This document shows, in pieces, positions 23,211 to 27,539 of a stretch of DNA of 64,000 nt (positions are counted from its first letter, which is position 1; each line of letters opens with the position of its first letter). A program made the translations under genes and the position numbers. This DNA is from Haloarcula sp. CBA1129 (lineage in GTDB: Archaea > Halobacteriota > Halobacteria > Halobacteriales > Haloarculaceae): assembly GCF_008729015.1 (NCBI RefSeq), contig NZ_RKSM01000001.1:62001-126000 (forward strand). The letters run 5' to 3'. The notes below the pieces were generated by a model. The model was not told where the DNA came from and made no database searches. It saw nothing but the letters and a program-made list of their open reading frames with translations.

Positions 23211-23777
23211 ATGCGTGGGTTCTACATCGGCCGCTTCCAGCCCTACCACAACGGCCATCACTCGATGGTCGAGCGCATCGCCGAGGAAGTCGATGAGCTC
23301 GTCTTGGGCATCGGAAGCGCCGACGATTCACACACCACACATGACCCCTTTACCGCCGGTGAGCGGATCATGATGATCACGAAGGCCGTCGCGGAGTACG
23401 ACCTGACGACCTATGTCGTGCCCCTTGAGGACATCAACCGCAACGCCGTCTGGGTGAGTCACGTCGAGAGTATGTGTCCGGACTTCGACGTGGCCTACTC
23501 GAACAACCCGCTTGTCGTCCGCCTGTTCGAGGAGGCCGGCATCGAGGTTCGCCAGTCGCCGATGTTCGACCGTGACCGGCTGGAGGGCAGCGAGATCCGC
23601 CAGCGGATGATCGACGACGAGTCGTGGCGCGACCGCGTCCCGTCGTCTGTCGTGGAGGTCATCGAGGAGATCCACGGCATCAAGCGGCTCCAGCACGTCT
23701 CGGACAGCGACTCGCTCGAACGGTACACCGCCGCCGACGAGTCGGTCGAGAAGTCTCTCGAAGACCTCGACGACTGA
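23211..23777 (+). CDS. nadM: Nicotinamide-nucleotide adenylyltransferase
   Basis: An archaeal-type NMN adenylyltransferase making NAD from NMN and ATP. The 188-residue protein begins MRGFYIGRFQPYHNGH, containing the (H/T)xGH nucleotidyltransferase motif. The second motif, near the C-terminus, is ISGTxIR-like (LEGSEIRQRM). Length matches the archaeal enzymes with a small acidic C-terminal extension. The ATG at 23211 is preferred because it begins the domain directly. Its stop shares one base with the start of the SAM hydrolase gene. Confidence 0.95.
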   Translation: MRGFYIGRFQPYHNGHHSMVERIAEEVDELVLGIGSADDSHTTHDPFTAGERIMMITKAVAEYDLTTYVVPLEDINRNAVWVSHVESMCPDFDVAYSNNPLVVRLFEEAGIEVRQSPMFDRDRLEGSEIRQRMIDDESWRDRVPSSVVEVIEEIHGIKRLQHVSDSDSLERYTAADESVEKSLEDLDD

Positions 23778-24553
23778 TGATTACGCTGAGTTCAGACTTC
23801 GGCTCTCCGTATCCCGCGGCGATGAAGGGTGTCATCTGTCAGGCGACGGACGCACGTATCGAGGATATCGCCCACGACTTTCCGCGACAGGATGTCAGGG
23901 CGGCGGCCTTCTGGCTCACGCAGACGCTCCCGTACTTCCCGCCGGCAGTCCACTGTGTGGTCGTTGACCCGGGCGTTGGGACCGACAGGGACGCGCTTGT
24001 GGTTCGCGCAGGCGAGCACGCGCTCGTGGGTCCCGACAACGGCGTCCTCCTGCCGGCCGCCCGCGAACTGGCCGAGAACGCAACCGGTGCAGCGGACACC
24101 TTCGAGGTGTTCACTTGGGCGTACGACGACCCGCCAAGTACGACGTTCCACGGACGGGACGTGTTTGCGCCAGCCGCGGCGGCCGTCCACGACACCGGCG
24201 TCGACGACATCGAAACACGGCCCGAAACTGACTCGACCGACGACTACGTCGACCTTCGGTTTCCGGCGGCCACAGTCGAGGGCGACAGAGCGACCGGTGA
24301 GATACTCGTCGTCGATGAGTTCGGGAACGCTGTGACGAACATTCCCGGTGAGGTACTCGCGGACCGGTTTGGGGACACAATCGGCGTTAGCGGGCATGAT
24401 GCTCCAGTCCGCCGCGCCTACGCCGCCGTCGATCAGGACCAGCGACTCGTGACCGTCGGCAGCCACGGGAACGTCGAACTCGCGGTCAATCGGGGTCGCG
24501 GCGACGAGGCGTTCGGTGTCAGTGCCGGCGACACAGTCACCATGTCACTGTGA
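23777..24553 (+). CDS. S-adenosyl-L-methionine hydrolase (adenosine-forming), DUF62 family
   Basis: This enzyme uses a hydroxide to cleave SAM into adenosine and methionine. The 258-residue protein shows the family motifs in order: TLSSDFG at the N-terminus, VVVDPGVGT, VGPDNGVL, TFHGRDVFAPAAA and VDEFGNAVTNIP. Its ATG overlaps the nadM stop by one base, giving translational coupling with NAD synthesis. The biological reason for destroying SAM is not established in this family. A T-rich stretch and the iron-type boxes follow. Confidence 0.92.
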   Translation: MITLSSDFGSPYPAAMKGVICQATDARIEDIAHDFPRQDVRAAAFWLTQTLPYFPPAVHCVVVDPGVGTDRDALVVRAGEHALVGPDNGVLLPAARELAENATGAADTFEVFTWAYDDPPSTTFHGRDVFAPAAAAVHDTGVDDIETRPETDSTDDYVDLRFPAATVEGDRATGEILVVDEFGNAVTNIPGEVLADRFGDTIGVSGHDAPVRRAYAAVDQDQRLVTVGSHGNVELAVNRGRGDEAFGVSAGDTVTMSL

Positions 24554-24574
24554 CGACGTGTGATTTCGCGGCAG

Positions 24575-24588
24575 TTTAGGCTCGCCGA
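24575..24588 (+). promoter_or_regulatory. Upstream DtxR/IdeR-type palindromic box
   Basis: The sequence TTTAGGCTCGCCGA is an imperfect inverted repeat (TTAGGC/GCCgAA, one mismatch), spaced 35 bp before a second, better copy. Together the two flank the TATA region of the lipoprotein gene. It resembles binding sites of iron/manganese-dependent DtxR-family repressors; metal response is inferred from the motif. Confidence 0.55.
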
Positions 24589-24610
24589 AAAATCGGTGCT
24601 GTTAAGTCTT

Positions 24611-24624
24611 TTAGGCCTGCCTAA
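24611..24624 (+). promoter_or_regulatory. Proximal DtxR/IdeR-type palindromic box
   Basis: TTAGGCCTGCCTAA is a near-perfect inverted repeat (TTAGGC, CT, GCCTAA) ending 8 nt before the ATG at 24633. It would lie over the start of a leaderless transcript, ideal for repression. The same paired arrangement recurs at 27111-27161. Confidence 0.65.
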
Positions 24625-24632
24625 TCGATTGT

Positions 24633-27101
24633 ATGCCACAGAGACGTGATTTGCTGAAGACGGTGGGGATCGCTGCGACGGGACTCCTTGCTGGCTGTCC
24701 CGGGGTGGGGTCGTCCGACTCGAACACGGCGTCAGCGGATACCGAAGCAGCGACAGAACAGGTAACGGCTGCAGAAACCGACGATGGGGGCGAAAGCGGC
24801 GGTTCGGTCGGAGCGATGACCGCTGTCGCGACTGAGTGGAACGCCTACCGGGCGCGGCTGTACGACGCCGTCGCGCTGGGCCGGGCCGGTGTGCCCGGTG
24901 CAGGGGCGACCGTCGCACAGAATATTTTCGCTCGGTTCGAAGGTGCATCGGGTGAGTATGGGGCCCACGAACAGCTTGAATCCACGTCCGAATCGGCATA
25001 CGAGGGGTTCGAAGACGCACTCGGCGCTGTCCAGTCGTCGCTGTCCGAGGGGGACGTGTCGGGGGCCGCTTCGGCAGCAGACGAGGCGTCAGGCCACCTC
25101 CAGACCGCACAGCAGGCCGCTGCTGGACAGCAGGCTACCAGAGTGCTGGACCTGCTCTTGCTGGGCAGCCGAGCGAGTAACGCTGCCATGGCCGCGACGC
25201 TGGGCGCTTTTGAAGGGGCTGCCGCTATCGCGGAAGAGACGACGACCGCGTTCGAGGACGCGCTGGTCCACGACAGGCTGGAGGCGGCCGACAGCGAGGC
25301 GTACGAGGCCTTCGAAGGCGCACTGTCTGGTATCGGCTCCGCTGCGGGCAATGAAGACGGAAGCAGTGTCACCGAACAGGCTCGCGCCGCGCTCGATGCG
25401 ACTGTTTCGGGTGCGTACGCGCTAATCTCCGAGGAGGTAGTCGCCGGTGCGGGCCACCTCTCGACAATGCAGGCCCGCGGTTGGGACGCAGCCGCACTCG
25501 CCTCCGCTGGCGGTCCCGGACAGGCGTACGCGCACACGGTCACGCTGAACAGTTACCGTGCCCGCGTCGCCGATGCGGACTGGCTCGCTGCCAACGACGC
25601 GGCGGCTGCAGCGTCGACGGCCGTCGAGAACGTCTTCGCTCACTTCGAGGGAGCAAACGCACACGACGCGCTGGAGGAGGCCGACGGCGAGGCCTACGAA
25701 GCGTTCGAGGGCGGGCTGGAGGACCTCTCCGGTGCTATTGAGAACGGCAACGCGGACGGCATCGACAGCGCCATCGAAACGGTCGATACGAACCTCGTGA
25801 CGGGTATCGAAGCGCTGGTCGGCGGTGAGGACGCCCGCGCTGCGCTGGAGTCGGCGTTCTTCCGTGCCCGCATCGCGGACGCCCGCGAACTGTATCGCCT
25901 CGGCGACGCAGACAGCGCGGCAACGATTGTCTCGGACGTCTTCGCCCGCTTCGAGGAGAACGAACTCGGCTTCCACGAGACGATGGAGCACGAGAGCGAA
26001 GACCTCTACCACCGCTTCGAGGAGGAACACCTCACATCGCTCCAGTCGGCCTACGAGAACGACGACAGTGCGGCCGTGGCGACCCACCACGACGGAGTCC
26101 AGCAGGCGCTGCTTGACTTCGAAGGGGCGCTGTCGACGGCCGTCGCCAGCGGCGCGGAGGCGGACTACATGATCGGTCGGGCCTTCGACGCGGCTGGACT
26201 CGCAGCGCTGTCGGAGACCGACCGCGCGGCGACCGTCATTCAGGACACCTTCGCTCACTTCGAGAGCGGTGCGGCGGGCTTCCACGAGGCACTGGAAGAA
26301 GCCGACGAGGACACCTACGAGAGCTTCGAGGCGACGCTTGCGGATGTTCGCTCCGCCGCTGAGGACGGCGGCGACGTCACCGCCGCGGCAACGGCGTTCA
26401 ACGCCGAGGCCATCGCGGCAGCGTACGCCATCGCCGGGAGTGCTGGCGGCAACGGGGAGGCCGCGGCGGCAGTCATTCAGGATGTCTTCGCGACGTTCGA
26501 GGGGGCGAAAGTTCACGAGATGCTGGAGGAAGCGGACCACGACGCCTACGAGAACTTCGAGGCCGCGCTGAACGACTACTCGCAGGGGCTCACGGGCGGG
26601 GACGCGGACCCGACGGTGTTTGCGGACGCGACGCGAACCGCGCAGTTCGCCGTCGTCGGCGCTGTCGACAACGCTCCAAGCGGGTCCGCGGGCGACGGCG
26701 GCGAGGCGTCCGAGGAGACCGAATCGTCGCTTTCGGGTGGCCCGAACGTTGTCGAGGGCGTTCCCGACGACGCGGACCACGTCGTCGACATGGAGGCAGT
26801 GGCGTTCGCGCCCGAGGAACTCACCGTCAGCGTCGGCGACAAAGTCGCTTGGGAACACGTCGGCGGCGAAGCCCACTCAGTCACCGCCATCGAAGATGAC
26901 ATCCCGGAGGACGCGTCCTACTGGGCCTCCGGTGGATTCGAAAGCGAATCGGCCGCACGCGAGGGCTGGGAGAACGGAGACGGGGCTGTGCAGTCCGGCC
27001 AGAGCTACGTCCACACGTTCGAGACGGCCGGCGAGCACGGCTACGTCTGTATTCCGCACGAAGCCGCGGGGATGGTCGGCACCGTTATCGTCGAAGAGTA
27101 G
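24633..27101 (+). CDS. Tat lipoprotein with six FExxx-HExLEEAD repeats and C-terminal blue-copper domain (DUF5059/halocyanin type)
   Basis: An 822-residue secreted protein. A short Tat-like signal (MPQRRDLLKTVGIAATGLLAGC) ends in a lipobox, so it is anchored outside the membrane. Six repeats of a Phe-Glu/His-Glu motif begin near residues 97, 190, 333, 434, 537 and 616. The best copies read VFAHFEGANAHDALEEADGE, then AYEAFEG. The C-terminal domain from about residue 715 is a cupredoxin with a full type I copper site: His748, Cys806, His809 and Met814. The repeats are rich in conserved Glu and His and could bind metal. The tandem metal-repressor boxes upstream suggest a role in iron or copper handling or electron transfer. 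A T-run follows the stop. The detailed function is not known to me. Confidence 0.85.
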   Translation: MPQRRDLLKTVGIAATGLLAGCPGVGSSDSNTASADTEAATEQVTAAETDDGGESGGSVGAMTAVATEWNAYRARLYDAVALGRAGVPGAGATVAQNIFARFEGASGEYGAHEQLESTSESAYEGFEDALGAVQSSLSEGDVSGAASAADEASGHLQTAQQAAAGQQATRVLDLLLLGSRASNAAMAATLGAFEGAAAIAEETTTAFEDALVHDRLEAADSEAYEAFEGALSGIGSAAGNEDGSSVTEQARAALDATVSGAYALISEEVVAGAGHLSTMQARGWDAAALASAGGPGQAYAHTVTLNSYRARVADADWLAANDAAAAASTAVENVFAHFEGANAHDALEEADGEAYEAFEGGLEDLSGAIENGNADGIDSAIETVDTNLVTGIEALVGGEDARAALESAFFRARIADARELYRLGDADSAATIVSDVFARFEENELGFHETMEHESEDLYHRFEEEHLTSLQSAYENDDSAAVATHHDGVQQALLDFEGALSTAVASGAEADYMIGRAFDAAGLAALSETDRAATVIQDTFAHFESGAAGFHEALEEADEDTYESFEATLADVRSAAEDGGDVTAAATAFNAEAIAAAYAIAGSAGGNGEAAAAVIQDVFATFEGAKVHEMLEEADHDAYENFEAALNDYSQGLTGGDADPTVFADATRTAQFAVVGAVDNAPSGSAGDGGEASEETESSLSGGPNVVEGVPDDADHVVDMEAVAFAPEELTVSVGDKVAWEHVGGEAHSVTAIEDDIPEDASYWASGGFESESAAREGWENGDGAVQSGQSYVHTFETAGEHGYVCIPHEAAGMVGTVIVEE

Positions 27102-27110
27102 CGCCGCTAT

Positions 27111-27161
27111 TTTTTGGATAGCCTAAAAACCGATGCCTTTTTGTGTTTTAGGGTTACCTAA
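27111..27161 (+). promoter_or_regulatory. Second copy of the paired DtxR-type promoter
   Basis: Two palindromic boxes lie here, one around 27114-27127 (TTGGATAGCCTAAA) and TTAGGGTTACCTAA at 27148-27161, with 34-35 bp between them. The stretch 27110-27172 aligns without gaps to 24573-24635, about 46 of 63 bases identical, including the final TTGTATGCC that contains the start codon. It is clearly a duplicate of the lipoprotein promoter. Confidence 0.65.
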
Positions 27162-27169
27162 ATAATTGT

Positions 27170-27286
27170 ATGCCGGACGAACAGGCCACATCGAGGCGGG
27201 ACATCTGTCGCCGTAGCGAGTCGGGTACTGCCGTCCCTGTCGTCCGCGCAAACCCCGCCCGACGGGAGGTGAGAGTCTGGACGTGA
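27170..27286 (+). pseudogene. Short remnant of a Tat-exported protein behind the duplicate iron-type promoter
   Basis: From the ATG the frame gives only 38 residues: MPDEQATSRRDICRRSESG and then arginine-rich sequence to a stop. The start contains a twin-arginine (SRRDI) in the position expected of a Tat signal, but the hydrophobic core is missing. A single frame shift after SRRDI gives VAVASRVLPSLSSA, which looks more like the lost signal-peptide core and then stops. I read this as the decayed 5' end of a secreted metalloprotein gene, though a real short peptide cannot be excluded. The rest of 27287-27539 shows no convincing gene. Confidence 0.4.
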
Positions 27287-27539
27287 GCGTGTACTGACCT
27301 GTCAGCTTCGACCATCTTTCGCGGCGACGACCACCGTGGGCATAGCCCGTCGCCGCGCGCCACGAGTTTTTCGTGTCTGTCCCGTGGGCGTCTCGCCCCA
27401 AGGACGCCCCATTTCAGGTCCTTCGCCGTGGACCACGCTGGAACCACTGATTCTTGCCAGCCACTGGTGTCCGATGAGTCGACACTGGTGCTGGTATTTC
27501 GGGACAGGCGTTTTGGGTCCGCCAGCCTTGACACCGACT

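Follow-up and report, generated by a model that had tools for sequence, protein, structure and literature searches.

In bacteria, the iron-sparing small RNAs RyhB, PrrF, FsrA and IsrR are each made from a separate small RNA gene with an iron-repressor box at its promoter. In haloarchaea, an iron regulon of the DtxR-family regulators (Idr, SirR, TroR) is marked by TTAGGN4CCTAA boxes beside siderophore genes and DtxR-family regulator genes. Regulatory sRNAs have already been described in archaea, and one of them is linked to metal transport: s479 of Haloferax volcanii is tied to zinc transport and, in the proteome, to iron transporters as well (PMC8155600). HVO_1228, a DUF5059 gene of the same species, goes up along with siderophore genes (PMC7714728). 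An archaeal sRNA made from an iron-repressor promoter was not found in the searchable literature, whose coverage falls short of some central work. Here we describe an archaeal RNA that is a candidate regulator in iron starvation.

The window analysed is a 64-kb stretch of DNA (64,000 nucleotides) from Haloarcula sp. CBA1129, and all coordinates refer to it. It contains two similar promoters, one in front of a lipoprotein gene and one in front of a segment that a preliminary description had read as the remains of a paralogous lipoprotein gene, deleted or decayed behind a duplicated promoter (Table 1). The two 63-bp promoter stretches (24573–24635 and 27110–27172) aligned without gaps with 44 identities, close to the 46 or so given in that description, while random 63-mers from the window gave 17.0 ± 3.8 identities. 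Each stretch holds two TTAGG...CCTAA palindromes, as described, and their spacing was 35 bp at both promoters (34–35 bp had been claimed). Both stretches also end, as had been noted, with a start codon, the shared end being TTGTATG and the ATGs lying at 24633 and 27170; the ATG of the lipoprotein gene is 8 nt after its box 2. Other twin-box promoters in the same genome reached only 28–35 identities out of 63 with these two stretches, so the kinship of the pair is closer than regulon membership alone would give. In other genera and families (loci L177–L188 and L014–L016), DUF5059 genes also had twin boxes 34–37 bp apart directly upstream, so the twin-box promoter of the lipoprotein is old.

Table 1. 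Features of the two promoters and the RNA gene in the 64-kb window.
Feature	Position	Strand	Basis or remark
DUF62-type gene	23777–24553	+	Locus comparison; usual upstream neighbour of the RNA
Upstream box 1, TTAGGCTCGCCGAA	24576–24589	+	1 mismatch to TTAGGN4CCTAA; DUF5059 lipoprotein gene
Upstream box 2, TTAGGCCTGCCTAA	24611–24624	+	0 mismatches to TTAGGN4CCTAA; DUF5059 lipoprotein gene
Lipoprotein gene, DUF5059 with C-terminal cupredoxin	24633–27101	+	PF16502 (E 2e-268), PF00127 (E 5e-15); leaderless layout
Downstream box 1, TTTGGATAGCCTAA	27113–27126	+	1 mismatch to TTAGGN4CCTAA; RNA gene
Downstream box 2, TTAGGGTTACCTAA	27148–27161	+	0 mismatches to TTAGGN4CCTAA; RNA gene
Structured RNA, ~215 nt	27170–27383	+	Alignments of 13 to 31 species; covariance model matches
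Putative leaderless ORF, 38 codons	27170–27286	+	Inside the RNA; ATG 8 nt after box 2
5′ domain closed by helix P1	27171–27250	+	27171–27185 pairs with 27236–27250; minimum-energy fold
Linker motif GGAGGUG, Shine-Dalgarno-like	27265–27271	+	GGRGGUG in 31/31 Haloarcula sequences
Core helix P_A	27320–27357	+	27320–27329 with 27348–27357; compensatory changes, re-pairing in two other genera
Conserved loop GUGGGCA (GUGGGC-type), inside P_A	27336–27342	+	Alignment
Hairpin P_E	27361–27365 with 27371–27375	+	Part of 27361–27383
Tail UCUGUCCC	27376–27383	+	Invariant in all Haloarcula loci, kept in other genera
Extra 3′ hairpin GGGCGTC/GACGCCC	27386–27409	+	Alignment; present in close relatives

Perfect boxes in this genome stood mostly before iron genes. 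They precede a cluster that encodes an IucA/IucC siderophore synthetase together with an aminotransferase, as well as several Peripla_BP_2 lipoproteins (periplasmic binding proteins) and the gene for a DtxR-family (PF01325, iron-dependent) repressor, which has twin boxes of its own. Because the boxes lie at siderophore and DtxR-family genes, and because HVO_1228 rises with the siderophore genes of Haloferax, the metal is most likely iron, which agrees with the metal control proposed in the preliminary description. The boxes appear to mark an iron regulon, and the RNA gene would be a member by its promoter box. The ATG usually follows the box by 3–11 nt, and a number of iron genes have a TATA-like stretch immediately before the box. 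At the RNA promoter, a T-rich, TATA-like CTTTTTGTGTTTTAGG is found just upstream of box 2 (TTATACA in loci L070 and L071). This order of TATA, box 2 and ATG suggests that the transcripts are leaderless and begin at the ATG or close to it, so that box 2 comes after the TATA element and before the start point. The palindromes are also conserved in relatives: at the RNA gene, box 2 was present in 31 of 31 Haloarcula loci, and box 1, allowing up to 2 mismatches, in 27 of them.

The box search also brought up two other arrangements. At a PF01325 regulator gene (L098, G000:C1:3454700-3457800), twin perfect boxes at 1496 and 1532 lie ~300–370 nt upstream of the coding start, and the intervening leader holds an 85-codon ORF. 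The leader, 74–79% conserved in ten close Haloarcula genomes, could be subject to autoregulation or represent a second small gene. The gene of a SufC-like ABC ATPase starts 9 nt after a one-mismatch box at 701 of L102 (G000:C1:165000-166500), which suggests that iron-sulphur cluster assembly could be under iron control.

The segment behind the second promoter was followed through the genus. The promoter and the conserved stretch were present together in all of the first 13 genus members that have the DUF5059 gene. In a DNA search, 28 of the 32 Haloarcula genomes yielded the element; a covariance model of its 3′ core recovered it in four genomes that the DNA search had missed. Overall, the RNA is present in 31 of 32 genomes; the remaining one, a 71% complete assembly, gave fragments only. 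Conservation extends to ~27450 in close relatives and ends abruptly there, even where the following sequence differs. The RNA itself would begin at or near 27170 and end after the UCUGUCCC tail. No Rfam match was obtained for the window region at E up to 5, or for six relatives at E up to 1.

The flanking genes vary between species, while the RNA is retained. The DUF5059 gene precedes it in 17 of 31 Haloarcula genomes. In the 14 loci without an intact adjacent DUF5059 gene, what is presumably a DUF62-type gene lies no more than 1.4 kb upstream of the RNA, directly before it in 10/31 genomes and ~0.6–0.9 kb upstream in 4/31. The same gene is also found upstream of the DUF5059–RNA pair in other Haloarcula loci, where seen. 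In one of the ten (L066, genome G046), a deletion has left nothing of the DUF5059 gene but its final codons, which are joined to an apparent remnant of its promoter, and the downstream RNA is intact.

The RNA consists of a 5′ domain, a linker and a 3′ core. Read by eye, P1, which closes the 5′ domain right behind the AUG, was present in 13 of 20 representatives, with changed yet paired bases in L050 and L069. In the 3′ core, P_A encloses a small hairpin, P_D (RCCGU-GGGC-AYGGY), and is followed by P_E and the tail; most of the distant species have a further hairpin, P_C, before P_E. More distant species have U-rich DNA after the tail instead of the extra 3′ hairpin. Some Haloarcula species (L061, L063, L065) carry a very stable inserted hairpin of ~80 nt between GGRGGUG and the 3′ core, and their 3′ domain z-scores are −2.5 to −4.4.

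An initial MAFFT alignment of the core had broken P_A of the close group with gaps, and the structure was therefore defined on longer sequences and all sequences were refitted with the model. In the refitted alignment of 27 distinct sequences, which leans towards the structure, 10 of 27 pairs had compensatory changes (both sides changed), compared with 3.9 in shuffles, and none of 500 shuffles reached 10. Pairing was retained in 94% of cells, and when the partners were slid at most 3 pairs had compensatory changes. The sequences thus show compensatory base changes within a common structure, the mark of a structured RNA. Folding energy was not used as evidence, because the full window RNA was no more stable than its shuffles (z = −0.28). 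The z-scores of the 5′ domain were likewise near 0, and the 3′ domain had a moderate excess of stability over shuffles in most of the distant species. Pairing of the loop with the tail (GGGCA with UGUCC) is possible; both hardly vary, so covariation cannot judge it.

The RNA was also sought beyond Haloarcula. The pattern CACGAG-N{2,8}-TCGTGTCTGTCCC, which describes the P_E hairpin and tail, gave 13 records among 84,980 species, namely 12 from Haloarcula/Halomicroarcula and one Halobacteriales MAG. A looser pattern, GTGGGCA-N{12,42}-TCTGTCCC, was run over 126 genomes of the family and revealed short, highly diverged versions in two further genera, g20 (six genomes, five by the pattern and the sixth by synteny, L146/L174) and g19 (seven genomes). 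Each of these 13 loci has a perfect TTAGGN4CCTAA box upstream of the tail, at 113–174 nt for those found by the pattern, and many have a T-rich promoter as in Haloarcula. None of 17 other inspected core-pattern matches (7 + 10) had a box, and they were taken as chance matches; nine of the 10 lie in other families and one is a second match in a Haloarcula genome. The covariance model also matched sequences of other genera and families (E 6e-4 to 0.009); these were rejected, since the four inspected had neither boxes nor core motifs.

In g20 and g19, P_A is built from different sequence, for example GATTCCGG/CCGGAATC, CGCCCCGGC/GCCGGGGCG and TGGCGGC/GCCGCCA. When P_A strands were exchanged among 17 lineages, own partners fitted better than exchanged ones (0 of 5000 permutations), although in g19 and L197 the unsupervised best helix was sometimes not P_A itself. 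This test does not depend on the structure-fitted alignment and is the more independent of the two covariation tests. In part of g20 the DUF62-type gene is followed by twin boxes and the RNA, and then by further boxes and the DUF5059 gene, so that the two promoters stand side by side as in Haloarcula but with the RNA first. The sequence around the RNA differs in g19.

These comparisons leave little room for the decayed paralogue. The two promoters are unusually alike, as such a history would have it, and a DUF5059 deletion is real in G046, but there it removed the upstream gene and not the RNA. Thirty-one genomes conserve the segment, which shows the covariation of an RNA; it persists in 14 Haloarcula loci without the DUF5059 gene, and in a sister genus it stands before that gene. 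Neither homology of the segment to DUF5059 nor an intact second lipoprotein gene at this place was found in any relative. We rejected this reading because the segment is conserved, and regard it as scarcely credible. A structured RNA behind a regulated promoter might instead be a riboswitch-like leader acting in cis on the next gene, which in the window is nth, ~90 nt past the conserved segment. However, the next gene differs by species, nth is downstream in only some loci, and the U-rich DNA after the tail in more distant species also speaks against a leader. A cis leader of nth was rejected because the downstream gene is not conserved, and a cis-acting leader of the next gene seems very improbable.

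A more serious alternative is that the locus is an iron-controlled gene for a small leaderless protein of 36–43 residues, the RNA structure being merely its untranslated tail. The ORF had been described as 38 codons with a broken Tat-like start, yet it is recognisable in 14 close relatives and is therefore no broken relic. Its length across Haloarcula is 36–43 codons, and in 30 of 31 species its ATG follows box 2 at exactly 8 nt, even where the adjacent bases differ. No stop occurs in its frame before GGRGGUG, and one follows within 9–31 nt of the motif in 18 of 19 representatives, compared with 3 of 38 other frames that have a stop shortly after the motif (excluding the TGA built into the motif itself). 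The pN/pS of about 0.6 is a weak coding signal. The kept start and stop hint at translation within Haloarcula. However, variable sites were not concentrated at third codon positions, one Haloarcula species has lost the AUG and another has a shifted frame, and GGRGGUG is read in different frames across the genus. In g20 and g19 there is either no AUG or a frame that runs on past the 40-codon limit, and the peptide had no Pfam match. The frame is thus not conserved across relatives, and codon-type substitutions were not seen. A reading as protein-coding only was rejected for its missing third-position bias and the loss of the frame outside the genus, and we consider the small-protein gene improbable.

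Other genera lack the ORF and two Haloarcula species have it broken, so the shared function does not require it; the element common to the genera compared is the RNA, not the peptide. Within Haloarcula, the kept AUG and stop region mean that the peptide could be part of the function, and the ORF is possibly a genus-specific, leaderless and translated one. A dual-function RNA, in which translation of the ORF or the peptide cooperates with the structured RNA, would be a special case of a structured RNA gene. The start and stop positions kept alongside strong structural covariation, and the ribosome-associated sRNAs of Haloferax, are in its favour, but the same absences and breaks of the ORF count against it, and we think it rather unlikely.

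We consider it probable that 27170–27383 is a conserved structured RNA gene with its own iron-regulated promoter, most likely acting in trans in iron starvation. A small transcript under metal control, which the preliminary description had offered as a minor alternative, is thus well supported by a conserved, covarying RNA behind a putative iron box. When iron is sufficient, a DtxR-family repressor would sit on both boxes, and since box 2 would separate the TATA-like stretch from the start point, transcription would be blocked. As iron falls, the repressor would leave and the RNA would be made from at or close to the AUG. It would then fold into the 5′ domain with P1, the linker with GGRGGUG, and the 3′ core, in which P_A with its loop is usually followed by P_E before the terminal UCUGUCCC. 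In Haloarcula only, the 5′ domain may double as the short leaderless ORF. The most likely mode of action of the RNA is in trans, through base pairing with mRNAs, through ribosome binding, or through both. The GGAGGUG of the linker fits the anti-Shine-Dalgarno end of 16S rRNA. In Haloferax, sRNAs that associate with ribosomes are frequent (PMC12482152), and with that match they make ribosome binding a real possibility beside mRNA pairing.

If this is correct, archaea evolved small-RNA control of the iron response independently. Haloarcula would then provide a single-copy gene whose switch and structural core are defined, and in which targets and dependence on Lsm or ribosomes are directly testable. 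The RNA is also a clean case of a structured RNA gaining a short ORF in one lineage.

Several described systems resemble this RNA in part. Dual-function RNAs of the SgrS/SgrT type likewise have a short 5′ ORF and a structured 3′ part, a likeness confined to Haloarcula, but the Haloarcula ORF appears leaderless, is poorly conserved in sequence and is missing in other genera. Like s479, the RNA would be a haloarchaeal sRNA with a link to metal transport; s479, however, depends on Cas6 for its maturation and is linked to CRISPR-Cas, and it is not known to be related to the RNA described here. With the DtxR-family iron regulon it shares the boxes, but the accessible descriptions of that regulon cover protein genes, whereas the Haloarcula member is an RNA gene. 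A further parallel is with RyhB, PrrF, FsrA and IsrR. Promoter boxes and independence from neighbours, as a putative RNA unit of its own would have, are seen here from genome sequence, and the RNA is expected to be made when iron is scarce. Unlike these RNAs, it is archaeal, stands behind a DtxR-type box rather than a Fur box, has no sequence or Rfam relation to them, and possesses a structured core with a conserved loop and tail. Tentatively, and with less than even confidence, we suggest that it represents an archaeal family of iron-starvation regulatory RNAs, an independent counterpart of RyhB, and that one genus has gained a leaderless ORF through whose translation the RNA is modulated.
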